Origin: Piscinibacter lacus
GTDB lineage: Bacteria > Pseudomonadota > Gammaproteobacteria > Burkholderiales > Burkholderiaceae_C
Direction: 5' to 3'
Length of the DNA: 64,000 bases
NCBI RefSeq assembly: GCF_016735685.1
Contig: NZ_JAERRA010000001.1
Coordinates: forward strand, 620,001-684,000
In this document: piece by piece, positions 20,735 to 41,402 of the stretch
Layout: every line of letters starts with the position of its first letter
Position numbering within the stretch: position 1 is the stretch's first letter
Notes under the pieces: model-generated
What the model saw: the letters and a program-made list of their open reading frames with translations, nothing else
The model's database searches: none
Told to the model about the DNA's origin: nothing
Translations under genes and position numbers: made by a program

Positions 20735-23473
<2,739 letters not shown>

Positions 23474-26589: not shown

Positions 26590-27465
26590 TCAGCCCACCA
26601 TGGTCTTGGCGATGGCGAAGACCTCGTCGGCATCCAGCACGAGATCGTTCTGCTCGAACATGCGCGCGACGCAGGCGCGGTGCAGGGCGATCTTCAAGGC
26701 GCCGAAACCCAGCGCGCCGAAGACGACCTTGCCGTGGCGCTCGACGCCCTTATCCATCATGTCGACGCCCTCGATCCCCAGCGGCGGCGTCGCGTTCGCA
26801 TCGGCCAGCAGCTCAAGCGTCGGGGAATCCTTCCACTGCGCTTCGGTCAGCAACTGGGCGCTGGCGGCGCCGGCAGCGAAGATCACCTGGGCGCCGTCGA
26901 TGGCCGCCGCAAAACCGGCCGGGTCGCGGGCGACCACGGCCTTGACGCTCAGGCCGAAGCGGGTCTGGATGGCTTCGGCTGCGGCGCCGCCCTTGGCGGC
27001 GTCGCGCGAGGTGATGGTCACCTCGCAGCCTTCACGCGCCAGCATCACCGCGGCGCGCTGGCCGACCGGGCCGCTGCCGGCCAGCACAACAGCCTTCTTG
27101 CCGGCCAGGCTGCCGCCGCGCTTGGCCGCGGCATGCGCCAGCCAGGCCACACCGGCCGCGGCGGTGGTGTTGGAGCCATTGCTGTCGAGCATGACCGAGA
27201 CGCGGAAGCCGGCGAAGAACTTCTTGCGCACGGCCTTGAACAGGGCCTCGCCCTCGACCATGTTGCCGCCGCCGACGAAGATGGCGGTCAGCTTCTTGTC
27301 CTTGGGCGCACGGGTGAAGATGGCCCCGTCGACCAGGCCGCCGACATTGGCGGGCGTCACGCCGCCGTAGGCGGTGATGTGGTCGGCGCCGCCGTCGTAG
27401 CCGACGACGTTGTCGAAGACCGAGGGCATCGGGTCGGTGTCGAACTGGTAGAGCAGTTTCTTCAT
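26590..27465 (-). CDS. mtdA: NADP-dependent methylene-tetrahydrofolate dehydrogenase
   Basis: MtdA oxidises or reduces between methylene-THF and methenyl-THF with NADP(H); running reductively it supplies methylene-THF for serine. The 291-residue protein begins KKLLYQFDTDPMPSVFDNVV, the MtdA signature, with GGVTPANVGGLVDGAIFTR, MLDSNGSNTTAAA and the NADP Rossmann motif VLAGSGPVGQRAA. It can also use methylene-H4MPT in other methylotrophs; no H4MPT genes are visible here. GGAG lies 10 bases before the ATG. It is the third gene of the sgaA-led operon. Confidence 0.96.
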   Translation of the reverse strand: MKKLLYQFDTDPMPSVFDNVVGYDGGADHITAYGGVTPANVGGLVDGAIFTRAPKDKKLTAIFVGGGNMVEGEALFKAVRKKFFAGFRVSVMLDSNGSNTTAAAGVAWLAHAAAKRGGSLAGKKAVVLAGSGPVGQRAAVMLAREGCEVTITSRDAAKGGAAAEAIQTRFGLSVKAVVARDPAGFAAAIDGAQVIFAAGAASAQLLTEAQWKDSPTLELLADANATPPLGIEGVDMMDKGVERHGKVVFGALGFGALKIALHRACVARMFEQNDLVLDADEVFAIAKTMVG

Positions 27466-27585: not shown

Positions 27586-28539
27586 TCAGGTGACCAGGTG
27601 CTGCGGCGTGCCGGCCGCCCAGCGCTCGACGTTGTCGATGAGCTGATCGGCCAGGAACTGCATCGCGCCGTCCGAGGCCCAGGCCACGTGCGGGGTCAGG
27701 ATGAAGTTCGGGCGCCGCAGGTCCAGCAGGGGATGGCCGTTCTTGGGCGGCTCGACCGTCAGCACGTCGAAGCCGGCGCCGGCGATCAGGCCTTCGTCGA
27801 GCGCGGTGATCAGCGCAGCCTCGTCGACCAGGCCGCCACGCGCGGTGTTGATCACCAGGGCATTGCGCTTCATCTTGCGGAACTGCTCGATGCCGATGAT
27901 GTTGCGCGTGCTCGGCGTCAGCGGGCAGTGCAGGCTGATCACGTCCGACTGGGCCAGCACCTCGTCGAAGGGCGTGAACTCGACCCCCGGCATCTTGGGC
28001 GGCTCATGGTCGGCGAACAGCACCTTCATGCCGAAGCCGCGGGCGATGGCTGCCGTGCCCTGGCCGAGCGCGCCTTCGCCGATGATGCCCAGCGTCGCGC
28101 CGTGCAGGTCGCCGATGTCGTGCGTGAAGAAGCAGAACTGGTCCGACTGCTGCCACACGCCCGCCTCCACATCCTGGCGGTAGGCCAGGATGTTGCGGCG
28201 CAGGGCCAGGATCAGCGCAAAGGCATGCTCCGGCACGGTGTGCACCGCGTAGTTGCGGATGTTGGCCACGGCGATGCCGCGGGCGCGGCAGGCCGGCACG
28301 TCAATCACGTCGTAGCCGGTGGCGGCCACGGCGATCATCTTCAGGTCGGGCAGTTGCGAGAGCACGTCCTCGCGCAGCGGCACCTTGTTGGTGATGGCCA
28401 CGGTCGCGCCCTTCAGGCGCTCGACGACTTGCTCCGGCGTGGTCTTCTCGTGCTCGACATAGCTGCCGCCCAGGGCCGGCGTGCGGACCTTGGCCTTCAG
28501 CGAGGCCCGGTCCAGGAAGACGACGTGGTGGGCACTCAT
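27586..28539 (-). CDS. hprA: Hydroxypyruvate reductase
   Basis: HprA reduces hydroxypyruvate to glycerate with NAD(P)H in the serine cycle. The 317-residue D-2-hydroxyacid dehydrogenase has the NAD motif LGIIGEGALGQGTAA (GxGxxG), the catalytic Arg in INTARGGLVDE, the Glu region DVLTVEPP and the His in LTPHVAWAS. The start ATG at 28539 overlaps the sgaA stop (ATGA), so the two enzymes that share hydroxypyruvate are translationally coupled. Length matches methylotroph HprA. Confidence 0.95.
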   Translation of the reverse strand: MSAHHVVFLDRASLKAKVRTPALGGSYVEHEKTTPEQVVERLKGATVAITNKVPLREDVLSQLPDLKMIAVAATGYDVIDVPACRARGIAVANIRNYAVHTVPEHAFALILALRRNILAYRQDVEAGVWQQSDQFCFFTHDIGDLHGATLGIIGEGALGQGTAAIARGFGMKVLFADHEPPKMPGVEFTPFDEVLAQSDVISLHCPLTPSTRNIIGIEQFRKMKRNALVINTARGGLVDEAALITALDEGLIAGAGFDVLTVEPPKNGHPLLDLRRPNFILTPHVAWASDGAMQFLADQLIDNVERWAAGTPQHLVT

Positions 28540-29753
28540 GCTGCGTTCTTCCCGGCGATCCAGTTGGCCATGTGCGCCGGCACATTCGCCGGGTCGCGCA
28601 GGAAGTTGCTGGCGGCGCCGACACCGCTGCCCGGCTCGACCTTGATGCCCACATCCAGCATGGCGGCCTCGGCACCCGCGATGGCGCCCAGCAGCATGCA
28701 CTCGTTCATGTCGCCGATGTGGCCGATGCGGAAGACCTTGCCCGCCACCTTGGACAGGCCGGCGCCCAGCGCCAGGTTGTAGCGGCGGAAGGCGCGGGAG
28801 ATCACGTCGGCGCCGTTGAAGCCTTCCGGCACCAGCACCGCGCTGACCGTGTCTGAATACCACTTCGGCTCCTTGGCGCAGACATCAAGCTTCCAGCCCT
28901 TCTGTACCGCCGCGCGCGTCGCGCCAGCCAGGTAGGCGTGGCGGGCGAAGACGTTGTCCAGGCCCTCTTCCTTCAGCGTGGCGATGGCTTCGCGCAGGCC
29001 GTAGAGCAGGGGCAGCGAGGGGGTGTAGGGGAAGTAGCCGGTCTTGTTGGCATTGACCATGTCGAGGTAGTCGAAGTAGCAGCGCGGCGCCTGGGCCGTC
29101 TTGCGCGCTTCGAGCGCCTTCTCGCTGACGCAGGTGATGCCCAGGCCGGCCGGCAGCATCAGGCCCTTCTGCGAGCCGCTGACGCAGACGTCCACGCCCC
29201 ACTCGTCCATGCGGAAGTCGACGCTGGCCAGCGCGCTGACCGAGTCGACGAAGAGCAGGGCCGGGTGGCCGCAGGCGTCCATGGCCTTGCGCACGCCGGC
29301 GATGTCGCTGTTCACGCCGGTGGCGGTCTCGTTCTGGGTGGCCAGCACGGCCTTGATCTTGTGGCCCTTGTCGGCCGCCAGGATCTCGGCATAGCGCTCC
29401 AGCGGCACGCCGGTGCCCCATTCGCAGTCCACGGTCTCGACGTTGAAGCCGAGGCGCTGGCACATGTCGATCCACAGGTGGCTGAACTGACCGAAGCGCG
29501 AGGCGAGCACGGTGTCGCCGGGGTTCAGGCAGTTGGTCAGCGCGGCTTCCCAGCAGCCGGTGCCGCTGGACGGGAAGATGATCGGCGTGCCGGTGGTGGT
29601 CTTGAAGATGTCCTTCAAGCCCTTGATGCAGTCAAAGGTGAGCTGCGAAAAGATCGGGGACCGATGGTCTTCCGACTGCACCGCCATCGAACGCAGGACG
29701 CGGTCGGGGATGTTGGTGGGACCCGGGACGAAAAGGAAGTTGCGGCCGGCCAT
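28536..29753 (-). CDS. sgaA: Serine-glyoxylate aminotransferase
   Basis: SgaA transfers the amino group of serine to glyoxylate, giving hydroxypyruvate and glycine, the entry point of glyoxylate to the serine cycle. The 405-residue class V PLP enzyme begins GRNFLFVPGPTNIPDRVLR and has the glycine-rich IIFPSSGTGCWEAALTN, the PLP Asp in LFVDSVSALAS and the Schiff-base Lys in VSGSQKGLMLP. GAGGAG (29761-29766 on the minus strand) precedes the ATG by 7 bases. It is the first gene of the eight-gene sgaA-to-mcl run, with 481 bases of non-coding DNA upstream that must hold its promoter. Confidence 0.96.
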   Translation of the reverse strand: MAGRNFLFVPGPTNIPDRVLRSMAVQSEDHRSPIFSQLTFDCIKGLKDIFKTTTGTPIIFPSSGTGCWEAALTNCLNPGDTVLASRFGQFSHLWIDMCQRLGFNVETVDCEWGTGVPLERYAEILAADKGHKIKAVLATQNETATGVNSDIAGVRKAMDACGHPALLFVDSVSALASVDFRMDEWGVDVCVSGSQKGLMLPAGLGITCVSEKALEARKTAQAPRCYFDYLDMVNANKTGYFPYTPSLPLLYGLREAIATLKEEGLDNVFARHAYLAGATRAAVQKGWKLDVCAKEPKWYSDTVSAVLVPEGFNGADVISRAFRRYNLALGAGLSKVAGKVFRIGHIGDMNECMLLGAIAGAEAAMLDVGIKVEPGSGVGAASNFLRDPANVPAHMANWIAGKNAA

Positions 29754-30234: not shown

Positions 30235-31638
30235 TCAGACAAAGATCGCCTTATCCGCAGCCAGGCATCCGTTGGCTGCGGCGGCCACCGTGCCCTGCGC
30301 CGCTTCGACGCTGAGCATCTGCAGGGCGCTGCCCACGGTGACGAAGGAACCGCAGACGATCACGCGGTCCCGCGAGCCGGCATGGGCGCGGGCGCTGGCC
30401 AGCGCGGCGGCGATGTCGGCACAGGCCGTCACGGGGCCCTGGGCGCCGCCCTGGGTCAGGGCCAGGGCCAGTTCCTCGGCCGAGGCGCCGCGCCGCTCGG
30501 GGATGCCGGCGATGAACCAGCCCTGCACCTGCGGTGCAAGCGCCTGGACGACGCCGACCATGTCCTTGTCGCGCAGCATGGCCAGCACGGCCAGGGTGCG
30601 GCCGGCCACCGGCTGGCGGGCCAGGGTGGCGGCCAGGCGCTGGGCGGCATGCGGGTTGTGGGCCACGTCGAGGATGACCTCGGGCACGGTGCCGAAGCGC
30701 TGGAAGCGCCCGGCCAGTTGCACCCGGCGCAGGCCGGCCTGGATGGCGGCCAGCGGCACCGTCAGGCGCTCGCGCAGGCGGTCCAGCGCCATCAGGGCGG
30801 TGGCGGCGTTGTCGAGCTGGATCTCGCCCTCCAGGCCCGGCATGGGCAGGGGTTCGAGCACGCGGCAGTTCTCGGCATGCTGGGCGTCGACGCGCCAGAA
30901 GCGCCAGGCGGGCTGGCCGTCGGCATCCTCGCGGGCCGACCAGCCGTAGCCCGCGCCCTGCGACCACAGCGGCGCGCCCACGACGCCGGCCTGCTTCAAC
31001 AGGCCCAGCGGGGGGTGCGGATCGCCGCAGACCGCCGGCCGGCCGCTGCGGAAGATGCCCGCCTTCTCGTAGCCGATGGAGTCGCGGGTGTCGCCGAGGA
31101 AATCGGTGTGGTCGATGCCGATGCTGGTGACCACCGACACGTCAGCATCGACGATGTTCACGGCGTCGAGCCGGCCGCCGAGGCCGACTTCAAGCACCAG
31201 CACGTCGAGCGCCGCTTCGTCGAAGACGCAGAGTGCGGCCAGGGTGCCGAACTCGAAGGGCGTCAGCGGCAGGCTGCCGCGGGCGGATTCGACCCGCGCG
31301 CAGGCCGCCGCCAGGCGCTCGTCGGCCACCGGGATGCCGTCGATGCGCACCCGCTCGGTGGGGTGCAGCAGGTGCGGCGAGGTGTAGCAGCCCACCCGGT
31401 GCCCGGCGGACTGGAGGATGGACGAGAGCATGGCGCAGGTCGAGCCCTTGCCATTCGTGCCGCCCACCGTGATGACCGGCACCCGCGGCGCCAGGCCCAA
31501 GGCCTGGTAGACGGTGCGGACCCGGTCCAGCCCCAGCTCGATGGGCTGCGGGTTGAGCTGCTCCGCCCAGGCCAGCCAGCCAGCCAGGTCACCCAGCCGG
31601 GGCTGCATCGGGAGTTCGCTCGTGATGCCTTGCTCCAT
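30235..31638 (-). CDS. folC: Folylpolyglutamate / dihydrofolate synthase
   Basis: FolC adds glutamates to folates (and often makes dihydrofolate from dihydropteroate), retaining the cofactor. The 467-residue Mur-ligase-family protein has the P-loop VITVGGTNGKGSTCAML (about residues 57-73), YTSPHLLHPTERVRIDG, VLEVGLGGRLDAVN, GIDHTDFLGDT and VILDVAHNPHAA. GGGAGC lies before the ATG at 31638. It is 27 bases downstream of ftfL, in the middle of the one-carbon genes rather than beside accD as in many betaproteobacteria. It may therefore be an extra copy serving the THF-based methylotrophic flux; a second copy cannot be checked here. Confidence 0.93.
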   Translation of the reverse strand: MEQGITSELPMQPRLGDLAGWLAWAEQLNPQPIELGLDRVRTVYQALGLAPRVPVITVGGTNGKGSTCAMLSSILQSAGHRVGCYTSPHLLHPTERVRIDGIPVADERLAAACARVESARGSLPLTPFEFGTLAALCVFDEAALDVLVLEVGLGGRLDAVNIVDADVSVVTSIGIDHTDFLGDTRDSIGYEKAGIFRSGRPAVCGDPHPPLGLLKQAGVVGAPLWSQGAGYGWSAREDADGQPAWRFWRVDAQHAENCRVLEPLPMPGLEGEIQLDNAATALMALDRLRERLTVPLAAIQAGLRRVQLAGRFQRFGTVPEVILDVAHNPHAAQRLAATLARQPVAGRTLAVLAMLRDKDMVGVVQALAPQVQGWFIAGIPERRGASAEELALALTQGGAQGPVTACADIAAALASARAHAGSRDRVIVCGSFVTVGSALQMLSVEAAQGTVAAAANGCLAADKAIFV

Positions 31639-31665: not shown

Positions 31666-33345
31666 TCAGAACAGGCCGACGACCTTGCCGTCGACCAGGT
31701 CGATCTTCTCGGCCGAGGGCACCTTGGGCAGGCCCGGCATGGTCATCACGTCGCCGCAGACCATGACGATGAATTCGGCGCCCGCGGCCAGCCGCACCTC
31801 GCGGATGTTCAGGGTGTGGCCGGTCGGCGCACCCTTGGCATTGGCATCGGTGGAGAAGCTGTACTGCGTCTTGGCGACGCAGACCGGGTAGCGGCCGTAG
31901 CCGGCTTCCTGCAGCTCGGCGATCTGCTTCTTGACCTTGGCATCGGCGCTGACGCCGGCCGCGCCGTAGATCTTGGTCGCGATGGCGGTCACCTTCTCCA
32001 TCAGCGTGGCCTCTTCCTCGTAGACGAACTTGAAGCCGCTCTTGCCCTCGTTCGCCTCGACCAGGCGCACCACCTCGTGGGCCACCGCTTCGGCGCCCTT
32101 GCCGCCTTCGGCCCAGTGACGGGCCACGACCACCGGCGCGCCCAGAGCGGCCATGCGCGCTTGCAGCAGGGCCAGCTCGGCCGGGGTGTCGGCGGTGAAG
32201 TTGTTGATCGAGACCACGCAGGGCAGGCCGTAGTGCTCGCGCACGTTCTGCACATGCTTCTCGATGTTGGCGATGCCCTTGGCCAGCGCGTCGAGGTTCT
32301 CGGTGTTGAGGTCTTCCTTCTTCACGCCACCGTGGAACTTGAGCGCGCGGATGGTCGCGACGATCACCACCGCATCCGGGCGCAGGCCCGACTTGCGGCA
32401 CTTGATGTCGATGAACTTCTCGGCGCCCAGGTCGGCGCCGAAGCCGGCTTCCGTCACCACATAGTCGGCCAGTTTCAGGCTGGCCTGGGTCGCGATGACC
32501 GAGTTGCAGCCGTGGGCGATGTTGGCGAAGGGGCCGCCATGCAGGATGGCCGGGTTGTTCTCCAGCGTCTGCACGAGGTTGGGCTGGATCGCGTCCTTGA
32601 GCAGCACGGTCATCGCGCCGTGGGCATTCAGCTCGCGGGCCGTCACCGGCTTGCCGGCGCGGGTGTAGGCGCAGACGATGTTGCCCAGGCGCTGCTTCAG
32701 GTCGTCGAGCGAGGTGGCCAGGCAGAAGATGGCCATCACCTCGGAGGCCACGACGATGTCGAAGCCGTCCTGGCGCGGGTAGCCGTTGGCCGTGCCGCCC
32801 AGGGCGATGGTGATGTCGCGCAGCGCGCGGTCGTTCATGTCGAGCACGCGCTTCCAGGTCACGCGGCGCACGTCGATGTCCAGCGCGTTGCCGTGGTGGA
32901 TGTGGTTGTCGATCACCGCGGCCAGCAGGTTGTTGGCGAGCTGGATGGCGTTGAAGTCGCCGGTGAAGTGGAGGTTGATGTCCTCCATCGGCACGACCTG
33001 GGCATAGCCGCCGCCGGCCGCACCGCCCTTGACGCCGAAGACCGGGCCCAGCGAGGGCTCGCGCAGGCAGACCAGGGCCTTCTTGCCGATGCGGTTGAGG
33101 GCATCGCCCAGGCCGACGGTGGTGGTGGTCTTGCCTTCGCCGGCCGGCGTCGGGCTGATGGCGGTGACCAGGATCAGCTTGCCGTTGGGGCGGTCCTTCA
33201 GGCTGTCGAGGTACTTCAGCGAGATCTTGGCCTTGTAGTGGCCGTAGGGCTCCAGGTGCTCGTCGGCGATGCCGAGCTTTTCGCTGGCGACCTGGGTGAT
33301 GCGCTGCAGCGTGGCGGCCTGGGCGATGTCGATGTCGGATGCCAT
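31666..33345 (-). CDS. ftfL: Formate-tetrahydrofolate ligase
   Basis: FtfL joins formate to THF with ATP, giving 10-formyl-THF, the entry of formate carbon to the serine cycle. The 559-residue protein has normal family length, the P-loop [20 protein letters not shown] (about residues 65-84), [28 protein letters not shown] and [21 protein letters not shown] precedes the ATG. With FchA and MtdA it completes formate to methylene-THF inside this window. It lies between gck and folC. Confidence 0.97.
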
Positions 33346-33450: not shown

Positions 33451-34719
33451 TCAGCCGATCAGGATCGCCCGGAAGTCGTTGACGTTGGTGAGCGTGGGGC
33501 CGGTGAGGATCAGATCGTCCACCCCGGCAAAGAAGCTGTAGCCGTCGTTGTTCGCCAGATGCGCCTTGGCGCTCAAGCCGCGGGCGGCGCCGCGCGCCAG
33601 GCTGTCAGGCGTGAGCACGGCGCCGGCGTTGTCCTCGGTGCCGTCGATGCCGTCGGTGTCGCAGGCGATGGCATGCACGCCGGGCAGGCCGTCCAGGGCC
33701 ACGGCCAGAGCGAGCAGGAATTCCGCGCAGCGCCCGCCGCGGCCCTGGCCGCGCACGGTGACGGTGGCCTCGCCGCCGGAGAGCAGCACGCAGGGCGCCG
33801 GCGCCGGCTGGCCGTGCTGCAGCACCTGGCGGGCGATGCCGGCATGCATCAGGGCCATGTCGCGGGCCTCGCCCTCGATGGCATTGCCCAGGATCAGCGG
33901 GGTGTAGCCGGCGGCGCGCGCCACGGCGGCCGCGGCCTCCAGCGACATCTGCGGCGTGGCGACCATGTGGGTCTCGGCCCGGGCCAGGCGCGGGTCGCCG
34001 GGCTTGGGCGTCTCGTCATGGCCGCGGCGGATGTAGTCCACCGCCACCTTGGGTTCGGTGATGCGGTACTTCTCCAGGATGGCCAGGGCATCCGCGCAGG
34101 TCGACGCATCCGGCACCGTCGGGCCGGAGGCGATGACCGAGGGGTCGTCGCCCGGCACGTCGGAGATGGTCAGCGTCACCACCCGGGCCGGCGCGCACAG
34201 GGCCGCCAGGCGGCCGCCCTTGAGCGCGCTGAGGTGCTTGCGCACGCAGTTCATCTCGGTGATGTTGGCGCCGCTCTTGAGCAGGGCCTTGTTCAGCGCC
34301 TGCTTGTCGGCCAGGGTCAGGCCTTCGGCCGGCGCGGCCAGCAGGGAGGAGCCGCCGCCCGAGATCAGGCAGAGCACCAGGTCGTCCTCCGTCAGGCCCT
34401 GCACGAGCCGGGCGATGCGGATCGCGGCCTCGGCGCCCGCGGCATCGGGCACCGGGTGGGCGGCCTCGACGATCTCGATCTGCTTCGTCGGCGCGGCATG
34501 GCCGTAGCGGGTGACGATGAGGCCGCTCAGCGGGCCGCCGCGCCAGTGCGCCTCGACCGCCGCGGCCATCGCACCGCTGGCCTTGCCGGCGCCGATCACG
34601 ATCGTGCGGCCCTTGGGCGGCTCGGGCAGGTGGGGGCCCAGCACCCGCATCGGATCGGCTGCCGCGACGGCAGCATCGAACATCGAGCGGAGCAGGGCAC
34701 GGCGGTCGGCAGCAGTCAT
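33451..34719 (-). CDS. gck: Glycerate 2-kinase (GckA / TtuD-type, MOFRL family)
   Basis: This enzyme phosphorylates D-glycerate to 2-phosphoglycerate, leading to PEP in the serine cycle. The 422-residue protein has the type II glycerate kinase fold: IVIGAGKASGAMAAA (residues about 40-54), CLISGGGSSLLAAPAEG, TISDVPGDDPSVIASGPT and the C-terminal MOFRL part with GDTDG-like ACDTDGIDGTEDNAGA and NDGYSFFA. Related TtuD proteins work in tartrate degradation, relevant because a tartrate dehydrogenase-like gene lies at 44437. It is 105 bases upstream of ftfL on the same strand. Confidence 0.95.
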   Translation of the reverse strand: MTAADRRALLRSMFDAAVAAADPMRVLGPHLPEPPKGRTIVIGAGKASGAMAAAVEAHWRGGPLSGLIVTRYGHAAPTKQIEIVEAAHPVPDAAGAEAAIRIARLVQGLTEDDLVLCLISGGGSSLLAAPAEGLTLADKQALNKALLKSGANITEMNCVRKHLSALKGGRLAALCAPARVVTLTISDVPGDDPSVIASGPTVPDASTCADALAILEKYRITEPKVAVDYIRRGHDETPKPGDPRLARAETHMVATPQMSLEAAAAVARAAGYTPLILGNAIEGEARDMALMHAGIARQVLQHGQPAPAPCVLLSGGEATVTVRGQGRGGRCAEFLLALAVALDGLPGVHAIACDTDGIDGTEDNAGAVLTPDSLARGAARGLSAKAHLANNDGYSFFAGVDDLILTGPTLTNVNDFRAILIG

Positions 34720-34743
34720 GGGCAGGCGCTAGGCGGCAGGGCG

Positions 34744-34765
34744 GTGGGGCCGTGAAAGGCCCCAC
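34744..34765 (-). other. 8-bp hairpin in the gck leader
   Basis: GTGGGGCC and GGCCCCAC flank a 6-base loop, 25 bases before the gck start. No T-tract follows. Upstream on the minus strand is TAGAAT (34782-34777), a 5/6 match to a -10 element, but no good -35 is seen. It may be part of a promoter/leader that separates the upstream transporter module from gck-ftfL-folC. Confidence 0.35.
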
Positions 34766-34853
34766 GCTGTCTGAAAATTCTAGGAAGGCCCCCGGGGGGT
34801 GGCCGATGCTTTTTCTGATCCGAGGCCAAAGAAGCGCTGACGCCCGGCGGGCC

Positions 34854-35618
34854 TCAGCCGTAGCGGTGGGCCAGCACGCCCAGGCCGTCGATCTCGACCT
34901 CGACCTCGCTGCCCGGCTTCATCGGCAGCACCCCCAGGGAGGTGCCGCAGAGGATCACGTCGCCGGGTTCCAGCGGCAGGTCTTGCGAAATGCGCGCCAC
35001 CAGCTCGGCCGGCGGGAAGAACATGTCGGCCAGGGCATAGGCCTGCCGCTCGCGGCCGCCGACGCGGGTGCGCAGCATGGCGGTGGACAGGTCCAGCGTG
35101 GTCTCGATCACCGGCCCCAGCACGCCGAAGCCGTTGAAGCCCTTGGCCCGCGTCCACTGCGGGAAGGCCGGGTCGCGGTTCAGCAGCTCAATCGCGGTCA
35201 CGTCGTCGGCGCAGGTGTAGCCCAGGATGTGGGCCGGCGCTTCGTCCACGCGGATGCGGTGCGCGCGCTGGCCGATCACCACGGCCAGCTCGCCCTCGAA
35301 GGCGACGCGGCCGACCTCGGCCGCCACCGCCGGGGTGACGCTTCCGTGGGCGGCCAGGCTGTTGGGGGTCTTGAGGAAGTAAAGCGGCTCGGTCGGCGGC
35401 GCCCAGCCGTTCTTCTCGGCCGCGGCGCGGAAGTTGTTCCACAGCGCCAGCACCTTGCCGACCTTGCAGGGCAGGCCCAGGGTGACCTCGTCGAGCCGCA
35501 GCGTGCCGCCCGTGGGATGGTGCTCGCCGAAGAGATCGCCGGTGTGGACCTGGATGGTGTCGCCTTCCAGGCTGCCGAAGCCTTCCGCCCCGGCATGGGT
35601 GAAGCGCAGCCATTTCAT
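34854..35618 (-). CDS. Fumarylacetoacetate hydrolase (FAH) family protein
   Basis: This 254-residue protein has the FAHD-type fold: KVLALWNNFRAAAEKNGW, YFLKTPNSLAAHG, FEGELAVVIG (metal-binding Glu residues), GYTCADDVTAIELLNRD and GVLGPVIETTLDL. Relatives hydrolyse acylpyruvates, decarboxylate oxaloacetate, or tautomerise enol-oxaloacetate. It follows the PanE-family gene by 13 bases, so it is part of the transporter/CoA-ligase module. In a serine-cycle cell oxaloacetate flux is high, so an oxaloacetate-directed role is plausible but not shown. Substrate unknown. Confidence 0.85.
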   Translation of the reverse strand: MKWLRFTHAGAEGFGSLEGDTIQVHTGDLFGEHHPTGGTLRLDEVTLGLPCKVGKVLALWNNFRAAAEKNGWAPPTEPLYFLKTPNSLAAHGSVTPAVAAEVGRVAFEGELAVVIGQRAHRIRVDEAPAHILGYTCADDVTAIELLNRDPAFPQWTRAKGFNGFGVLGPVIETTLDLSTAMLRTRVGGRERQAYALADMFFPPAELVARISQDLPLEPGDVILCGTSLGVLPMKPGSEVEVEIDGLGVLAHRYG

Positions 35619-35631
35619 CGGGCCGGCCTCC

Positions 35632-36639
35632 TCACAGCGGCAGCAGGGCCATGCGGCCGCGCTGCCCGGTGACGGTGTCGCTCAGCAGGCGGGCCGCGCC
35701 GTAGATGGCTTCCAGCTTGGGGGTGGGCGTGCCGGTGATGCGGCCCAGCTCGACGACGCTGCCGACCAGGGCCTCCAGCTCCAGCCCGCGGCCGGCTTCG
35801 ATGTCTTGCAGCATCGAGGTCTTGTGCGCACCCACCGCCTCGGCGCCGGCCAGGCGCTGCTCCAGGGTGATCTTGAACTTCACGCCCAGGGATTCGGCCA
35901 CGGCCTGCGCCTCGGCCATCATGGCGCGGGCCAGTTCGCGGCCGGCGGGGTGGCGGCAGATCTGCTCCAGCGTCGCATGGGTCAGCGCGCTGATCGGGTT
36001 GAAGGTGGCATTGCCCCAGAGCTTCACCCAGATCTCGCCGCGGATGTCCTTGCTGACGGGGCTCTTGAAGCCGGCGCCGATCATGGCCTTGGACAGGGCC
36101 TCGATGCGCTCGCTGCGCGAGCCGTCGGGCTCGCCCAGGGTGAAGCGATTGCCCTCGATCACCTTCACATGGCCGGGGGCCAGCAATTCGGCGGCCGGAT
36201 AGACCACGCTGCCGATCACGCGCTCGGGTTCGATGTGGCGGGCGATCACGCCGCCCGGGTCCACGCTGTCGAGGCTGCTGCCCTCATGGGCGCCGCCGAG
36301 CTTGTGGAAATACCACCAAGGCACGCCGTTGATCATGCTGACGACCAGGGTCTCCGGCCCGAAGAGCCCGCGCAGGCCGGGCAGCAGGTCGGCCACCTGG
36401 TGGGCCTTGACGGTCAGCAGCACGGCGTCCTGCGGGCCGGCCTCGGCCGGGTCCTGCACCGCCTTCACATTCGGCGCATGAACGGTCTCGCCGTTCTCCA
36501 GCGTCAGGCGGAAGCCGTCGCGGCGGATGGTTTCCAGGTTCTTGTTGCGGGCGATGAAGGTGACCTCCTCGCCCGCCCGCGAAAGCTGGGCGCCGAGGTA
36601 GCCCCCGATGGCGCCCGCACCGACGACGGTGATCTTCAT
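35632..36639 (-). CDS. PanE-family reductase; candidate oxalyl-CoA reductase
   Basis: This 335-residue protein has the ketopantoate reductase fold: NADP motif VGAGAIGGYLGAQLSRAG at the N-terminus, MINGVPWWYFHKLG near 103, the catalytic Lys region WVKLWGNATFNPISALT (K206) and a helical C-terminal domain. It is longer than typical PanE (about 290-305). The context is not pantothenate synthesis; it sits between tctA and an FAH-family gene, three genes from an AAE3-like CoA ligase. From memory, a PanE-like protein (PanE2) of Methylobacterium extorquens was reported to be an oxalyl-CoA reductase that makes glyoxylate. I infer the same possible role here; plain 2-oxoacid reductase is the alternative. 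It lies 3 bases after tctA. Confidence 0.72.
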   Translation of the reverse strand: MKITVVGAGAIGGYLGAQLSRAGEEVTFIARNKNLETIRRDGFRLTLENGETVHAPNVKAVQDPAEAGPQDAVLLTVKAHQVADLLPGLRGLFGPETLVVSMINGVPWWYFHKLGGAHEGSSLDSVDPGGVIARHIEPERVIGSVVYPAAELLAPGHVKVIEGNRFTLGEPDGSRSERIEALSKAMIGAGFKSPVSKDIRGEIWVKLWGNATFNPISALTHATLEQICRHPAGRELARAMMAEAQAVAESLGVKFKITLEQRLAGAEAVGAHKTSMLQDIEAGRGLELEALVGSVVELGRITGTPTPKLEAIYGAARLLSDTVTGQRGRMALLPL

Positions 36640-36642
36640 GCT

Positions 36643-38157
36643 TCAGGCCTCCTTGGCTTGCGCGGAGCGGCCCGCCAGCCGCGCCTTGGCCGCCGCGAAC
36701 AGCGGCCACAGCAGCATCAGCAGCGCCAGGCTGAAGATGGCACCGACCAGCGGGTTGGCCCAGAAGATGGACAGCGAACCCTGCGACAGCAGCATGGCCT
36801 GGCGGAAGCTGGCCTCGGCCATATCGCCCAGCACCAGGGCCAGCACCAGCGGCGCCAGCGGGTACTTGAGCTTCTTGAACAGGTAGCCGAGCACGCCGAA
36901 GACCATCATCAGCGCCACGTCGAACATCGAGCTGTGCACGGTGTAGGCACCGATCGCGCAGATCACGATGATCACCGGCGCGATCACCGCGAAGGGAATG
37001 CGCAGGATGGCCGCCCACCAGGGCACGGTCGAGAGCACGACGATCAGGCCGACGATGTTGCCCAGGTACATCGAGGCGATCAGGCCCCAGACGAAGTCCT
37101 TCTGCTCGATGAAGAGCATGGGGCCGGGTTGCAGGCCCCAGATCAGCAGGCCGCCCAGCAGCACAGCCGCCGTCGGCGAGCCCGGGATGCCGAGCGTCAG
37201 CATGGGCAGCAGGGCCGAGGTGCCGGCGGCATGGGCTGCCGTCTCGGGGGCGACGACGCCCTCGATCTCGCCCTTGCCGAAGTTCTGCGGGTTCTTCGAG
37301 ATGCGGCGGGCCATGCCGTAGCTCATGAAGCTGGCCGGCGTCGCGCCGCCCGGGGTGATGCCCATCCAGCAGCCGATGGCGGTGGAACGCAGGAAGGTGC
37401 GCCAGTGCTTGATCAGCAGGCCCCAGGTCTGGAAGACGACCTTGGGGCTGATCTTCGCGCTCTTGCCCTTGAAGGCCAGGCCCTCTTCCATGGTCAGCAG
37501 GATCTCGCCGATGCCGAACAGGCCGATGACCGCGATCAGGAAGTCGAAGCCGCGCATCAGGTCGGTCACGCCGAAGGTCATGCGCAGCGTGCCGGTCACC
37601 GCATCCAGGCCCACCGCGGCCAGGGCGAAGCCCAGCATCATCGCGGCGATGGTCTTGGCCGGTGGTTCCTTGCTCATGCCGACGAAGCTGCAGAAGGTGA
37701 GCAACTGCACGGCGAAGAATTCGGCGGGCCCGAACTTGAGCGCGAACTTGGCCAGCAGCGGCGCCAGGAAGGTGATCACCACCACGGCGATCAGCGCGCC
37801 GACGAAGCTGGAGGTGAAGGCCGCCGTCAGCGCCTGCGCCGCCTTGCCCTGCTGGGCCATGGGGAAGCCGTCGAAGGTGGTGGCCACGCTCCAGGGCTCG
37901 CCCGGGATGTTGAAAAGGATGGACGTGATCGCCCCGCCGAACAGCGCACCCCAGTAGATGCAGCTCAGCATGATGATCGCCGAGGTGGGGTTCATGCTGA
38001 AGGTCAGCGGCAGCAGGATGGCGACGCCGTTGGCGCCGCCCAGGCCGGGCAGCACGCCGATCAGCACGCCCAGCACGATGCCGATCAGCATGTAGAGCAG
38101 GTTGGGGCCGGTCAGCGCGACGCTGAAGCCCCCCATCAGGTTGCTGAGTTCTTCCAT
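36643..38157 (-). CDS. tctA: Tripartite tricarboxylate transporter, large permease (TctA)
   Basis: This 504-residue inner-membrane protein has about 12 hydrophobic segments and the TctA motifs: VLIGVLPGLGGANGVAILLP, WGALFGGAITSILFNIPGEP, and GITPGGATPASFMSYG followed by LTLGIPGSPTAAVLLGG. TctA is the large subunit of sodium- or proton-coupled carboxylate uptake systems. It is directly downstream of tctB (30-base gap) and 3 bases upstream of the PanE-family gene, which links transport to the reductase. The substrate cannot be deduced. Confidence 0.93.
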   Translation of the reverse strand: MEELSNLMGGFSVALTGPNLLYMLIGIVLGVLIGVLPGLGGANGVAILLPLTFSMNPTSAIIMLSCIYWGALFGGAITSILFNIPGEPWSVATTFDGFPMAQQGKAAQALTAAFTSSFVGALIAVVVITFLAPLLAKFALKFGPAEFFAVQLLTFCSFVGMSKEPPAKTIAAMMLGFALAAVGLDAVTGTLRMTFGVTDLMRGFDFLIAVIGLFGIGEILLTMEEGLAFKGKSAKISPKVVFQTWGLLIKHWRTFLRSTAIGCWMGITPGGATPASFMSYGMARRISKNPQNFGKGEIEGVVAPETAAHAAGTSALLPMLTLGIPGSPTAAVLLGGLLIWGLQPGPMLFIEQKDFVWGLIASMYLGNIVGLIVVLSTVPWWAAILRIPFAVIAPVIIVICAIGAYTVHSSMFDVALMMVFGVLGYLFKKLKYPLAPLVLALVLGDMAEASFRQAMLLSQGSLSIFWANPLVGAIFSLALLMLLWPLFAAAKARLAGRSAQAKEA

Positions 38158-38187
38158 GGTGTTCTCGTGTCGGGAGGGGGAGGGGGC

Positions 38188-38694
38188 TCAGAAGCCCAGC
38201 AACTGCTCGATCGGTCCCTTGTGCAGCGGCACCAGGAACCAGCGCTCGAAGACCAGGAAGAAGAAGAGCGGCACGCCGACCGACACGGCCGTCGTCAGCG
38301 GCCAGCCGTACTTGCCATGGCGGCGCATGAAGTAGCCGATCAGGCCGATCGAGGCCATGTAGAGACCCAGGAACCAGACGAAGCCCACATAGATGGTCAT
38401 GGGGATCGCCATCTGCATCACGCTGCGGATCTGGCTGCGCTCGGCAAAGGCCGGATTGCGCGTGCCCCAGCGGCGCAACTGGCCGACCAGCACCGAGCCG
38501 CTCGAGATGAGCAGGGCCAGGCCGATGTAGAAGGGGAAGTAGCCGGACTCGGGGCCGTCCTCGGCCCAGCCGGTGCCCACGCGCCGGCTGTCGACGATCA
38601 CGATCAGCGACAGGATGACCAGGAACAGGGCGACGAGCAGTTCGGGCCAGCGGGTGCCGACCACCGGGCCGGCGTCTTCGGTCGGGTCAGACAT
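38188..38694 (-). CDS. tctB: Tripartite tricarboxylate transporter, small permease (TctB)
   Basis: This 168-residue membrane protein has four predicted transmembrane segments (ELLVALFLVILSLIVIVDS, YFPFYIGLALLISSGSVLVG, IPMTIYVGFVWFLGLYMASI, TAVSVGVPLFFFLVFERWFL) and the GPESGYFPF motif of TctB. I start at the ATG at 38694 since GGAG lies 8 bases upstream; a second ATG at 38700 is too close to it. Small, poorly conserved partner of TctA. Confidence 0.88.
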   Translation of the reverse strand: MSDPTEDAGPVVGTRWPELLVALFLVILSLIVIVDSRRVGTGWAEDGPESGYFPFYIGLALLISSGSVLVGQLRRWGTRNPAFAERSQIRSVMQMAIPMTIYVGFVWFLGLYMASIGLIGYFMRRHGKYGWPLTTAVSVGVPLFFFLVFERWFLVPLHKGPIEQLLGF

Positions 38695-38722
38695 GACCAT
38701 CTCTCCAGGGGACAAGCTGCCA

Positions 38723-38739
38723 GGGGGCTTCAGGCCCCC
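38723..38739 (-). other. Hairpin between tctC and tctB
   Basis: A 6-bp GC stem (GGGGGC/GCCCCC) lies between tctC and tctB with no T-run. In other tripartite transporter operons the binding protein is made in excess, and such a hairpin could trim read-through or protect the upstream mRNA. Candidate only. Confidence 0.35.
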
Positions 38740-38808
38740 CGGGCAGCGGTTCATCGATCGTTGGGGGCAAGGCGGTGGCCGGATGCGGTCAGCGCCCCGC
38801 GCGCCGGT

Positions 38809-39804
38809 TTACTTGGCGAGGAAGCCGGCTTCCTTCATCAGCACCCGGTGCATCTGCTCGTTCTTGCCGAGCCACTCGAAGAAGGCGTCACCCGTCAGGG
38901 CCGACTGGTTGAAGGCGCCCTTCTGCATGAACTCCTTCCACTCCGGCAGCTCGCGGACCTTGGCGAACAGGTCCTGGTAGTACTTGACCTGCTCAGGCGT
39001 CACGCCCGGCGTCATGAAGATGCCGCGCAGCATCACGTACTCGATGGGCACGCCGGCCGAGGTGCAGGTCGGGATGGCCTTCCAGCCCTCGTAGGGCAGG
39101 GGCTGCTTGTCCATCACGCACAGGGGACGCAGCTTGCCGCCCTTCCAGTGGCTCTCGGCCTCGATGGGGTTGTTGACCGTCGAGTTCACATGGTTGCCGA
39201 CCAGTTGCACCGCCACGTCGCCGCCGCCCTTGAAGGGCACGTAGGTGACCTTCTTGCCGGCGGCCTTCTCGAACATCACGGTGATGATCTGGTCTTCCTG
39301 CTTGGAGCCGGTGCCGGCCATCTTGAAGGCGTTGTTGTCGCCCTTCTTGACGGCTTCGAAGTAGTCCTTGGCGGTCTTGTACGGCGAGTCGGCATTGACC
39401 CACAGCACGAACTGGTCAAGGGCCAGCATCTGCACCGGCGTCAGGTCGCGCCAGTTGAAGGGCACGCCGGTGGCCAGCGGGGTGGTGAAGAGGTTGGACA
39501 GGGTGATGATGATCTTGTGCGGATCGCCCTTGTCGCCCTTGACGGCCAGGAAGCCCTCGGCGCCTGCGCCGCCGGACTTGTTGACCACCACCAGCGGCTG
39601 CTTCATCAGGTTGTTCTTGGCGACCACGCCCTGGATGAAGCGGGCCATCTGGTCGGCGCCGCCGCCGGTGCCGGCCGGCACGATGAATTCGACCGGCTTG
39701 GTCGGCTCCCAGGCCAGGGCGGCCGGGCTGGCCGCCAGGCCCAGCAGGGCGAAGGCTGCGGTGATGGCGCTGCGCAGGGGGGATGCGTGCTTGGTTCTGG
39801 ACAT
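38809..39804 (-). CDS. tctC: Tripartite tricarboxylate transporter substrate-binding protein (TctC/Bug)
   Basis: This 331-residue periplasmic Bug-family protein has a signal peptide (residues 1-31, AASPAALA/WEP), then the opening KPVEFIVPAGTGGGADQMAR, typical of Bug proteins that bind carboxylates through two water-mediated contacts. GAGGAGACA precedes the ATG. It is upstream of tctB and tctA and 68 bases after the CoA-ligase gene. Several Bug proteins are known to bind C2-C6 carboxylates, so oxalate, tartrate, malonate or others are all possible. Confidence 0.92.
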   Translation of the reverse strand: MSRTKHASPLRSAITAAFALLGLAASPAALAWEPTKPVEFIVPAGTGGGADQMARFIQGVVAKNNLMKQPLVVVNKSGGAGAEGFLAVKGDKGDPHKIIITLSNLFTTPLATGVPFNWRDLTPVQMLALDQFVLWVNADSPYKTAKDYFEAVKKGDNNAFKMAGTGSKQEDQIITVMFEKAAGKKVTYVPFKGGGDVAVQLVGNHVNSTVNNPIEAESHWKGGKLRPLCVMDKQPLPYEGWKAIPTCTSAGVPIEYVMLRGIFMTPGVTPEQVKYYQDLFAKVRELPEWKEFMQKGAFNQSALTGDAFFEWLGKNEQMHRVLMKEAGFLAK

Positions 39805-39872
39805 TGCTGTGTCTCCTCAAGGGGGTGGTGTGGGGGCGGTCTGCATGCCGCCTTCGATCGTTGACTCGGTGT

Positions 39873-41402
39873 TCAGCCCGTCAGGCCCAGCTTGGCCGCA
39901 AGGCCGATGCGCTGCAACTTGCCGGTGGCCCCCTTGGGGATCTCGTCCATGAACAGGATCTTCTTGGGCACCTTGAAGTCGGCGGCGCGCTGGCCGATGA
40001 AGTCCTGCAGCTCGCGCTCGCTGAGCGCAGCACCCTCGCGCAGCACCACGCAGGCGGCGACTTCCTCGCCCAGCTTGGGATGCGGCATCGCGAAGGTCAC
40101 GACCTGGGCCACGGACGGGTGGTCCATCATGATCTCGTCGACCTCGCGCGGGCTGATCTTCTCGCCGCCGCGGTTGATGATCTCCTTCAGGCGGCCGGTC
40201 AGGCTGATGTAGCCCTCGGCATCCATCACGCCCTGGTCGCCGGTGCGGAACCAGCCGTTCGTGAAGGCCTCGGCATTGGCCTTGGGGTTGCTCTCGTAGC
40301 CGGCGGTCACATTGGGGCCGCGGATGACGATCTCGCCGATCGAGCCAGCCGGCAGGATCGTGCCGTCTTCGCCCATGATGCCCACCTCGGGGCCGGCAGC
40401 CAGGCCGACCGCACCGGGCTTGCGTGCCCGCGGCGGCAGCGGGTTGCTGGCCATCTGGTGGGTGGCCTCGGTCATGCCGTAGGCCTCGATCAGCGGGGCC
40501 TTGAAGACGGCCTCCAGCTCGGCGATGACCTGCGGCGGCATCGAGGACGAGGACGAGCGCAGGAAGCGCAGGGGATGGCGCGCGATGATCTCGGCGTTCT
40601 TGCCAGCCCGGGTCAGGATGGCCTGGTGCATGGTCGGCACGGCCGTGTACCAGGTGGGCTTGGCCTCGTCCATCCAGGCGAAGAACTTCAGGGCATTGAA
40701 GCCCGGAGTGCAGAAGACCTGCGAGCCGGCCGACAGCGGCGCCAGCACCCCGGCGATCAGGCCGTGGATGTGGAAGAGCGGCATGATGTTCAGGCCGCAG
40801 TCCTTGTCGGTGAACTGCAGGGTCGCGCGGATGTTCTGTGCCGAAGCGGCCAGGTTGCGCTGCGACAGCGGCACGATCTTGGGCCGCGAGGTGGTGCCCG
40901 AGGTGTGCAGCACCATCGAGACATCGTCGGGCTCGGCATCGCCGCCGTGCGCGGCCGGGCTGCCGCCTTCCGCGCCGTCGCGCGGTTGCAGGGTGAAGCC
41001 GCCGGCGGCCTCGCCGGGGATCAGGTCCAGCACGCGCACGCCCAGCTTCTGGGCCACCTCGATGGCCGGCGAGCTGCTGGCCTGCTCGACGATCAGCGCC
41101 TTGGCATTCAGGTCGGAGAGGTAGAACTCGAACTCGTCCGCGCGGTAGGCCGGGTTCAGCGGCGCGCTGGTCACGCCGCGGGCGCAGGCCATGTAGCAGG
41201 CGGCCATCTCGGGGCCGTTGGCCAGCACGATGGCGACCCGGTCGTTGCGGCCGATGCCCAGGCCGTTGAGGCGGGCGATCGTCGCGTCGATCAGGCTGCG
41301 CAGGCCGCTGAAGCTGAGCGGCGGACGCCCGGGGGCGGAAAGGGCGGTGGCGGTGTCGGCGCCGGTCGCTAGAAGCGACTTCAAGGTCGTTTGCATGGTC
41401 AT
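39873..41402 (-). CDS. AMP-forming CoA ligase, AAE3/Pcs60-like; candidate oxalyl-CoA synthetase
   Basis: This 509-residue ANL-family enzyme has the phosphate loop LHTSGTTSRPKIVPL, PLFHIHGLIAGVLAPL, the A5 motif EAYGMTEATHQMASNPLPP followed by RKPGAVGLAAGPEVGIM, GWFRTGDQG, and the C-terminal catalytic Lys in PKGATGKLQRI. The stretch with MTEATHQMASNPLPP and KPGAVG closely parallels, from memory, plant AAE3 and yeast Pcs60, which are oxalyl-CoA synthetases (about 514 residues). The ATG at 41402 is followed by a second ATG at 41396; the SD is weak. It is the upstream-most gene of the minus-strand train. A different short dicarboxylate or acyl substrate remains possible. Confidence 0.78.
   Translation of the reverse strand: MTMQTTLKSLLATGADTATALSAPGRPPLSFSGLRSLIDATIARLNGLGIGRNDRVAIVLANGPEMAACYMACARGVTSAPLNPAYRADEFEFYLSDLNAKALIVEQASSSPAIEVAQKLGVRVLDLIPGEAAGGFTLQPRDGAEGGSPAAHGGDAEPDDVSMVLHTSGTTSRPKIVPLSQRNLAASAQNIRATLQFTDKDCGLNIMPLFHIHGLIAGVLAPLSAGSQVFCTPGFNALKFFAWMDEAKPTWYTAVPTMHQAILTRAGKNAEIIARHPLRFLRSSSSSMPPQVIAELEAVFKAPLIEAYGMTEATHQMASNPLPPRARKPGAVGLAAGPEVGIMGEDGTILPAGSIGEIVIRGPNVTAGYESNPKANAEAFTNGWFRTGDQGVMDAEGYISLTGRLKEIINRGGEKISPREVDEIMMDHPSVAQVVTFAMPHPKLGEEVAACVVLREGAALSERELQDFIGQRAADFKVPKKILFMDEIPKGATGKLQRIGLAAKLGLTG

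Follow-up and report, generated by a model that had tools for sequence, protein, structure and literature searches.

A candidate oxalate-to-glyoxylate gene module adjoining the serine-cycle cluster of Piscinibacter lacus

Analysis of a 64,000-nucleotide stretch of the Piscinibacter lacus genome (GCF_016735685.1, contig NZ_JAERRA010000001.1, positions 620,001-684,000 of the forward strand; from here on called the window, to which all positions refer) points to a six-gene module that would import oxalate, activate it to oxalyl-CoA and reduce it to glyoxylate. We put the probability of this chemistry, as judged from sequence, at about 0.8. The module adjoins a full serine-cycle cluster, and coupling of the two is partly supported, the basis being adjacency in one genus and co-occurrence across genomes.

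Organization of the locus

All module genes are encoded head to tail on the minus strand and are followed by gck-ftfL-folC and then by the genes from sgaA to mcl. The six module genes are:

Ligase, 39873..41402, minus strand: ANL-superfamily enzyme, probable oxalyl-CoA synthetase (oxalate--CoA ligase)
TctC, 38809..39804, minus strand: periplasmic solute-binding protein (PF03401)
TctB, 38188..38754, minus strand: small membrane subunit (PF07331)
TctA, 36643..38157, minus strand: large membrane subunit (PF01970)
panE, 35632..36639, minus strand: PanE/ApbA-family enzyme, probable glyoxylate-forming oxalyl-CoA reductase (PF02558 and PF08546)
FAH, 34854..35618, minus strand: FAH-family enzyme by fold (PF01557 and PF10370), of a subfamily frequent in oxalate loci

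All six products pass their Pfam cut-offs (AMP-binding and AMP-binding_C, TctC, TctB, TctA, ApbA and ApbA_C, FAA_hydrolase and Rv2993c-like_N, respectively), and the third-position GC of the genes, 0.93-0.96, is coding-like. Intergenic gaps from the ligase to FAH measure 68, 54, 30, 3 and 13 bases, with 134 bases between FAH and gck. Gene order and strand recur unchanged in G001, the other genome of the genus (94% identity for both the ligase and PanE, 87% for FAH and 97% for MtkA), so the order is not an assembly accident. The arrangement first proposed by the sequence-only reading, with six closely spaced genes on one strand and a serine-cycle set downstream, is thereby confirmed. Scanning found no promoter-like sites, no excess of terminator-like sites over shuffled sequences and nothing above chance at Rfam gathering cut-offs, and the FAH-gck gap showed no RNA-folding signal (z of -1.58 in the window and 0.16 in G001).

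The downstream genes are:

gck, 33451..34719, minus strand: glycerate 2-kinase family (DUF4147 and MOFRL); best NCBIfam model glycerate 2-kinase, 229.4 bits, missing the cut-off of 550
ftfL, 31666..33345, minus strand: formate--tetrahydrofolate ligase (NF010030, 905 bits, above the cut-off of 652)
folC, 30235..31638, minus strand: bifunctional folylpolyglutamate/dihydrofolate synthase (NF008101, 422 bits, above the cut-off of 360)
sgaA, 28536..29753, minus strand: glyoxylate aminotransferase of class V; the closest model is BhcA (582.5 bits, below the cut-off of 650)
hprA, 27586..28539, minus strand: hydroxypyruvate-reductase-like D-2-hydroxyacid dehydrogenase (PF02826 and PF00389); no NCBIfam model over cut-off
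mtdA, 26590..27465, minus strand: methylene-H4F/H4MPT dehydrogenase family (PF09176)
fchA, 25840..26478, minus strand: methenyl-H4F cyclohydrolase (NF045657 over cut-off)
mtkA, 24513..25682, minus strand: malate--CoA ligase beta (NF010647, 714 bits, above the cut-off of 604)
mtkB, 23608..24498, minus strand: malate--CoA ligase alpha; matches succinate-CoA ligase alpha models and adjoins mtkA
ppc, 20735..23473, minus strand: phosphoenolpyruvate carboxylase (NF000584, 764 bits, slightly below the cut-off of 815)
mcl, 19664..20641, minus strand: malyl-CoA lyase family (HpcH/HpaI, PF03328), named by place; no NCBIfam model over cut-off

Curated models of the same name are passed by ftfL, folC, fchA and mtkA, the other names being given by family and place. 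Read in this way, the serine-cycle set is complete (sgaA, hprA, mtkAB, ppc, mcl, ftfL, mtdA, fchA and a glycerate kinase). The genome also contains fae, and the host carries genes for life on one-carbon compounds.

The ligase resembles oxalyl-CoA synthetases

The solved enzymes nearest to the ligase are AtAAE3 (5ie0, 435.8 bits), the grass-pea oxalyl-CoA synthetase (6qjz, 429.6 bits) and Pcs60 (8aff, 361.5 bits), all of them eukaryotic, whereas the window ligase is bacterial. Malonyl-CoA synthetase reached 215.8 bits, half the AAE3 score, and has no His at position 315. In a 73-row tree the ligase, AAE3, LsOCS and Pcs60 form one group (95/84) with malonyl-CoA synthetase outside, Pcs60, L097 and L109 being long rows of unsure placement. 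H211, the RSSSS stretch and H315 of the ligase align with H214, S289 and H319 of AtAAE3 (numbering as used here), which we take to be the oxalate contacts. The ligase carries the motifs FHIHG and TEATH, and FHxHG and TEAxH are kept in every row shown that is at least 46% identical. The motif His is also present in L097 (40% identity), in whose 4.4-kb piece no panE was seen; L109 carries a Pro at this position, yet the tree places it on a long branch within the ligase group. Bit scores, motif residues and tree thus weaken an assignment as malonyl-CoA synthetase or another ANL ligase, and the window enzyme is probably an oxalyl-CoA synthetase of the AAE3/Pcs60 type. Phylogeny had been set beforehand as a test of the oxalate proposal, and its outcome is favorable: the ligase joins AAE3/Pcs60 and stays apart from enzymes that activate other acids.

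PanE and its genome neighborhood

PanE has the ketopantoate-reductase family fold and keeps the family Lys and Glu, which are presumably catalytic, features that do not separate ketopantoate reduction from oxalyl-CoA reduction (among 54 ligase-linked rows, the C-terminal Glu pattern missed 4 and the Lys pattern 1). In the tree it belongs to an oxalate-linked subfamily whose members lie beside oxc, frc, an antiporter or the ligase; among the 25 rows grouped without a linked gene are L098, whose ligase lies on the adjoining piece L099, and loci truncated at a contig end. The window protein carries an NGVPWW loop, and the corresponding NG-x-P-[WYF]-W loop is missing in 4 of 5 comparison proteins. 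Identity is 52% to a Cupriavidus metallidurans relative (L105) and 57% to one from Methylobacterium bullatum, congeners that stand in for the assayed ApbA2 and PanE2.

Neighborhoods of panE were compared across 80 loci from other genomes, many of which end early. The ligase lies on the same strand as panE in 48 loci and on the opposite strand in none. oxc was found in 7 of the 80 loci (over the equivalog cut-off in L050, L057, L077, L080 and L082; BLAST calls in L064 and L074) and frc in 8 (over cut-off in L057 and L082). Four loci have a relative of the oxalate/formate antiporter, which passes the cut-off in L044, L047 and L050. Such an antiporter adjoins subfamily members in Methylobacterium and Collimonas. 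The ligase, oxc, antiporter and TctA queries all lacked a match nearby in 20 of the 80 loci, 16 of them from Nostocaceae. Subfamily and neighborhood point to a probable glyoxylate-forming oxalyl-CoA reductase.

Transporter and FAH-family enzyme

By Pfam, TctC, TctB and TctA make up a full tripartite tricarboxylate transporter set. TctCBA systems carry many carboxylates, and binding proteins of the TctC type act in uptake. Near panE, TctA with 60% identity or more was found in 28 of the 80 loci and TctC relatives (61-70% identity) in 6 of the 7 oxc loci with panE, and it is this gene neighborhood that suggests oxalate as the substrate.

This PanE reductase is often accompanied by the FAH-family enzyme, which occurs near panE in 20 loci, in 10 of them on the opposite strand. 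The FAH-family enzyme has A66 and K69 where the usual H-x-x-E pair stands, a pair that its subfamily lacks.

Distribution and relation to the serine cycle

Of 399 family genomes, 54 carry the ligase, and 48 of these have no true mtkA. The ligase is present in 6 of 8 serine-cycle genomes vs 48 of 391 others (Fisher p 1e-4), the eight comprising 3 genera and hence few independent lineages. The module adjoins a full serine-cycle cluster in this genus only (two genomes); in four relatives that have both sets, these lie about 1.08 Mb apart (G085) or on different contigs (the other three). A count of gck, ftfL, sgaA, hprA, mtkA and mcl at 60-70% identity, up to 12 kb from panE, gave a single gck (L009) as the only match in the 80 loci. 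Given this lone gck and the distance in G085, the module can do without the cycle, and as it occurs in other genomes that have no such cycle, it does not belong to the cycle exclusively. Genome co-occurrence and panE neighborhoods thus reject a conserved tie across genera. The claim that the locus makes up an oxalate module feeding the serine cycle is strongly supported for activation and reduction, by phylogeny, residues and neighborhoods, and in part for the link to the cycle.

Alternative readings

A serious contender, though one to which we give less than even odds, keeps the conversion of oxalate to glyoxylate and differs in role only: the placement beside the serine cycle would be chance in one lineage, and the module would serve detoxification or a general supply of glyoxylate (malate synthase, glycine). 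The distribution of the ligase and the lone gck described above favor such a reading, as does isocitrate lyase, which is present in the genome and can already supply glyoxylate. This enzyme likewise led us to reject the idea that the module makes up for an absent way of regenerating glyoxylate; no Ccr was found over cut-off in the genome. Chance placement has to be set against the higher frequency of the ligase in serine-cycle genomes and against an arrangement that the two genomes of the genus share in strand and order.

Three further readings, all improbable, would change the chemistry itself. PanE could be the housekeeping ketopantoate reductase, its place in the locus being incidental; this reading keeps some weight because panE is the only ApbA_C gene found while panB is present, and the family catalytic residues are kept. 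However, panB is carried by 15 of 17 relatives that have no ApbA_C match and in which pantoate is presumably made by a different enzyme, and both the subfamily and its loop argue for oxalate. Judged by panB, panE is also not linked to pantothenate genes, panB lying on contig C2 and panE on C1. About equally unlikely is that the substrate of ligase and reductase is a different small acid, such as malonate, tartronate or mesoxalate, from which they would give the matching semialdehyde. The breadth of TctCBA substrates and the difficulty of inferring ANL specificity from sequence speak for this; the poor malonyl-CoA synthetase match speaks against it, as do the oxc, frc and oxalate/formate antiporter genes that stand in for the ligase or the transporter in related loci. 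Hardly more probable is a module working in reverse, with glyoxylate oxidized to oxalyl-CoA and oxalate exported so that the cell is guarded from glyoxylate. An uptake-type binding protein, an ATP-using synthetase that points to activation and the lack of any oxc or frc over cut-off in the genome to pull reverse flow all argue against it, whereas PMC7486775 treats the oxalyl-CoA/glyoxylate reaction as reversible and proposes ApbA2 in the glyoxylate-oxidizing direction.

Comparison with known systems

Schneider et al. reportedly described in 2012 an oxalyl-CoA reductase route (PanE2) in Methylobacterium extorquens, an organism that has oxc and frc for energy as well. As proposed for the window, oxalyl-CoA is reduced there to glyoxylate, which enters the serine cycle. 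PanE2 is presented as a characterized oxalyl-CoA reductase in PMC8411744. The M. bullatum locus (L104) has the order antiporter-fah-panE-ligase, with the antiporter over cut-off, and so shares fah-panE-ligase with the window but has an antiporter in place of TctCBA; tblastn with the window's serine-cycle proteins gave no match in its 29-kb stretch. Cupriavidus necator ApbA2 is likewise a PanE-family enzyme for the oxalyl-CoA/glyoxylate step, there tested by deletion: according to PMC7486775, the apbA2 deletion slowed growth on oxalate, growth was lost without Frc-Oxc, and glyoxylate is burnt through a malate cycle. Unlike in the window, frc-oxc adjoins ApbA2 there, and glyoxylate enters the glycerate pathway. 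In plants, the AAE3 step is followed by an oxalyl-CoA decarboxylase (PMC8004701 and PMC9090294), whereas a reductase follows in the window. Polaromonas and Ramlibacter loci of the type frc-oxc-tctCBA-panE (L057, L064, L074, L077 and L082) share TctCBA and panE, and L064, L077 and L082 also FAH, but where the window has the ligase they carry frc and oxc, with no serine-cycle genes seen nearby. Titles and abstract starts in a literature search yielded no paper on this locus. The reaction is already known from PanE2 and ApbA2; what is new is that TctCBA replaces the antiporter and that the module stands against a full serine-cycle cluster.

Proposed function and implications

We propose that TctC would capture periplasmic oxalate and that TctBA would move it across the inner membrane, steps suggested by the neighborhood. 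The ligase would then convert oxalate, ATP and CoA to oxalyl-CoA, as its clade and residues indicate, and the PanE-type enzyme would reduce this to glyoxylate, in keeping with its subfamily and neighborhood. Glyoxylate accepts the amino group in the SgaA reaction, so every oxalate taken up could stand in for one glyoxylate that would otherwise have to be regenerated from acetyl-CoA.

The sequence-only reading noted no oxc or frc in the window, and genome-wide neither exceeds its cut-off (best oxc match 192.4 bits vs 739.4; best frc match 156.2 and 65.8 bits, two stretches in one frame, vs 504.2). The usual route from oxalate to formate and reducing power should thus be closed, and oxalate may serve mainly as a glyoxylate co-substrate or supplement during C1 growth, not as food. 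This reading is weaker than the chemistry because glyoxylate could be burnt via a malate cycle, as in C. necator, and because the search for oxalate-degrading genes covered oxc and frc, oxalate oxidase, decarboxylase and oxidoreductase being other routes.

At its boldest, and tentatively, the locus may equip the serine cycle with a glyoxylate supply of its own in a bacterium lacking Oxc and Frc: oxalate would be imported only to load the acceptor while C1 oxidation pays, module and cycle would be co-regulated, and the A66/K69 FAH would play an undescribed part, for example in handling oxalate or oxo-acid by-products. If true, this would be an oxalate route for assimilation only, unlike that of the Frc-Oxc-dependent C. 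necator. TctCBA, antiporter and ABC-type transporters are all found beside the same ligase-reductase pair, and the locus draws attention to an FAH subfamily that may take part in oxalate metabolism. Ligase, reductase and transporter would also offer a compact gene set for feeding glyoxylate into laboratory serine-cycle strains.

Gene layout and synteny of the candidate oxalate module

The window belongs to contig C1; the genome measures 3.03 Mb and is 99.22% complete. All genes that the sequence-only reading had named as a candidate oxalate-to-glyoxylate module upstream of the serine cycle were found on the minus strand where it had placed them, and its family names agree with the Pfam and NCBIfam results. 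The features referred to here are:

39873-41402 (-), CoA ligase, followed by tctC, tctB and tctA
35632-36639 (-), PanE-family reductase
34854-35618 (-), FAH-family enzyme
34720-34853 (-), gap between FAH and gck
28536-29753 (-), sgaA
44440-45531 (+), tartrate dehydrogenase

The module is compact, with gaps of 68, 54, 30, 3 and 13 bases from ligase to FAH and 134 bases between FAH and gck. Downstream, ftfL, folC, fchA and mtkA were confirmed by model and the remaining serine-cycle genes by family and place. For gck, hprA and mcl no NCBIfam model passed, ppc scored slightly under the cut-off of its model and the top model for sgaA, BhcA aspartate-glyoxylate aminotransferase, stayed below its cut-off (582.5 vs 650). 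Gene order is identical in the second genome of the genus (G001), with a DNA identity of ~90-92.5% across three long aligned stretches. In both genomes the FAH-gck gap contains a GC-rich hairpin; compared with shuffled sequences, the gap shows no gain in folding in G001 and a weak one in the window. Another dicarboxylate enzyme, a tartrate dehydrogenase that scores over the cut-off of TIGR02089, is encoded ~3 kb from the ligase.

The ligase groups with oxalyl-CoA synthetases

Among solved proteins, Arabidopsis AAE3 (5ie0, 435.8 bits) is nearest to the ligase, followed by the grass-pea oxalyl-CoA synthetase LsOCS (6qjz, 429.6 bits) and yeast Pcs60 (8aff, 361.5 bits), with malonyl-CoA synthetase behind these at 215.8 bits. 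The proposed kinship with AAE3 and Pcs60 held in a tree of 73 rows, where the window ligase, AAE3, LsOCS and Pcs60 fall into one 62-row group (95/84) and malonyl-CoA synthetase lies outside; the branches of Pcs60, the more distant locus L097 and the plasmid protein L109 are long, and the exact position of these three is unsure. In the alignment, FHIHG, RSSSS and TEATH of the window ligase stand opposite AtAAE3 H214, S289 and H319 (our own numbering), which we take to be oxalate-contacting residues. FHxHG and TEAxH are kept in every displayed ligase row with an identity of at least 46%, and malonyl-CoA-synthase-like and acetyl-CoA-synthetase-like rows are without that histidine. L097, a 40% relative, keeps the histidine, with PTHHIHG instead of PLFHIHG, and has no panE within the 4.4 kb fetched. 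Among the ligase relatives listed, 10 of 120 carry the source-given name oxalate-CoA ligase.

Reductase neighborhoods and reductase identity

With the PanE protein as query, a scan of species genomes gave 359 confirmed loci, the best 80 of which were analyzed, with a ligase counted as neighbor at an identity of at least 44%. Ligase and panE share a strand in 48 of these best 80 of 359 loci and lie on opposite strands in none; TctCBA is located between them in 19, 23 are adjacent (gap <300 bases) and 6 have a gap of 1.0-4.2 kb. The 32 loci of this set without a ligase include 7 with oxc, 2 with an oxalate-antiporter relative and 3 with TctA only, leaving 20 of the 80 with none of these near panE: 16 from Nostocaceae, L081, the frc-carrying L049, and L012 and L031, whose contigs break off next to panE. 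Curated models were passed by oxc and frc in L082 and L057, by oxc in L050, L077 and L080, and by the oxalate/formate antiporter in L044, L047, L050 and Methylobacterium bullatum L104. The order in L104 is antiporter-fah-panE-ligase, the antiporter standing where the window has TctCBA.

Nostoc-group cyanobacteria and Chloroflexota also pair ligase with panE (L052, L061, L062, L067-L072, L075), and one relative, G018, has oxc-frc and ligase-panE loci at separate places (L084 and L094). A conserved small protein, 138 aa long in L082, is encoded ahead of fah or panE in oxc/frc/antiporter-type loci (L044, L049, L050, L056, L057, L064, L074, L077, L081, L082). One further row is:

L044 5581-15972 (Collimonas sp. 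OK242), oxalate/formate antiporter, succinate/malate-CoA-ligase-like pair, fah, panE, formate dehydrogenase

The CoA-ligase-like pair of L044 may perhaps carry out ADP-forming activation of oxalate.

In a reductase tree of 94 rows, whose bootstrap is not fully settled, ligase-linked and oxc-linked reductases form one large group, the ligase-linked rows making up no single clade. Four of five comparison ApbA proteins are outside; the fifth, PDB 3ghy (putative function), is inside on a long branch. All 54 ligase-linked rows have an NG-x-P-W-W loop, and the version NG-x-P-[YF]-W is present in 7/7 oxc-linked and 3/3 antiporter-linked rows; 4/5 comparison rows have neither. Excerpts of published work describe M. 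extorquens PanE2 as a characterized oxalyl-CoA reductase (PMC8411744) and Cupriavidus necator ApbA2, 51% identical, as the same enzyme type, its role tested by deletion, which raised the doubling time on oxalate from 6.5 to 10 h (PMC7486775).

The most serious rival concerning the reductase is that panE encodes the housekeeping ketopantoate reductase, as no second ApbA_C gene was found in the genome and panB is present; however, panB also occurs in 15 of 17 relatives having no ApbA_C match. It is also quite possible that the module serves general or detoxifying oxalate use with no special tie to the serine cycle.

Transporter and FAH-family enzyme

TctCBA relatives are found in 6 of the 7 oxc loci among the best 80 of 359 panE loci (TctA 65-79%, TctC 61-70%). 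Other panE loci have the antiporter instead, or an ABC transporter in Rhodobacteraceae SC52, a third transporter kind with the same ligase-panE pair:

L106 3085-8981 (Rhodobacteraceae SC52 plasmid), ABC transporter genes with NMT1-like binding protein, immediately before ligase-panE

The neighborhoods point to oxalate as the TctCBA substrate, short of proof.

An FAH protein of at least 40% identity lies near panE in 20 of the best 80 of 359 loci, equally divided between the panE strand and the opposite one (10 each). The window protein belongs to a subfamily (with L044, L047, L064, L082, L104) encoded beside oxalyl-CoA-reductase-type genes and marked by WNNF and CGTS motifs, the latter replacing GTP. 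Metal-ligand positions and the ExE, D and K positions are kept. The H-x-x-E pair of HpcE-type enzymes, catalytic in FAHD1-type enzymes, is replaced in 12/12 aligned rows; its first residue becomes A or L, across the subfamily also M, and its second K or Q. The predicted structure (mean pLDDT 86.3, 65-85 around the replaced pair) has the FAH fold, with 3rr6 and 4pfz nearest and YisK with oxalate (8sky) among the matches.

Rarity of the arrangement

The ligase and mtkA searches covered 399 family genomes each, presumably one and the same set to judge from the handles. The ligase is present in 54/399 and true mtkA (at least 85% identity) in 8/399; mtkA matches at 52-57% look like succinyl-CoA synthetase. 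Six of the 8 mtkA genomes, which represent only 3 genera, have the ligase vs 48 of 391 others (Fisher p 1e-4); it is missing from G339 and G273, draft genomes of ~610 and ~210 contigs. Among the 399 genomes, module and serine cycle stand together only in both genomes of this genus (mtkA to ligase ~15.3 kb); they are ~1.08 Mb apart in G085 and on different contigs in G196, G397 and G078. A search for gck, ftfL, sgaA, hprA, mtkA and mcl near panE in 80 other-genome loci (best 80 of 359) returned a single gck (L009). The arrangement described in the sequence-only reading is therefore real, rare among the genomes and loci examined, and recent or lineage-bound.

The route from oxalyl-CoA via glyoxylate to the serine cycle is already known from M. 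extorquens, where Schneider reportedly described it in 2012. Titles and abstract starts of open-licence PMC papers yielded neither TctCBA with a ligase-reductase pair nor such a pair beside serine-cycle genes, though reports may exist in print. In excerpts of a 2026 survey, oxalyl-CoA reductase is counted among the assimilation enzymes and OxlT is the one transporter named (PMC12927642).

Predicted oxalate and C1 metabolism of the organism

The absence of the decarboxylating branch from the window extends to the whole genome, with neither gene over cut-off. The top oxc score is 192.4 bits vs 739.4, in a range found in nearly every genome searched and taken for acetolactate synthase, and for frc two stretches score 156.2 and 65.8 bits vs 504.2. 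Excerpts of the C. necator study report that strains without frc-oxc do not grow on oxalate, which the authors ascribe to missing reducing power, and that glyoxylate is burnt by a malate cycle (PMC7486775). Because of the former, oxalate alone is predicted, by analogy, not to support growth of this organism; a malate cycle could weaken that prediction. Since isocitrate lyase (359.5 and 283.6 bits, two stretches) and fae are present and no crotonyl-CoA carboxylase/reductase scores over cut-off, the genome suggests a C1-using organism able to regenerate glyoxylate via isocitrate lyase.
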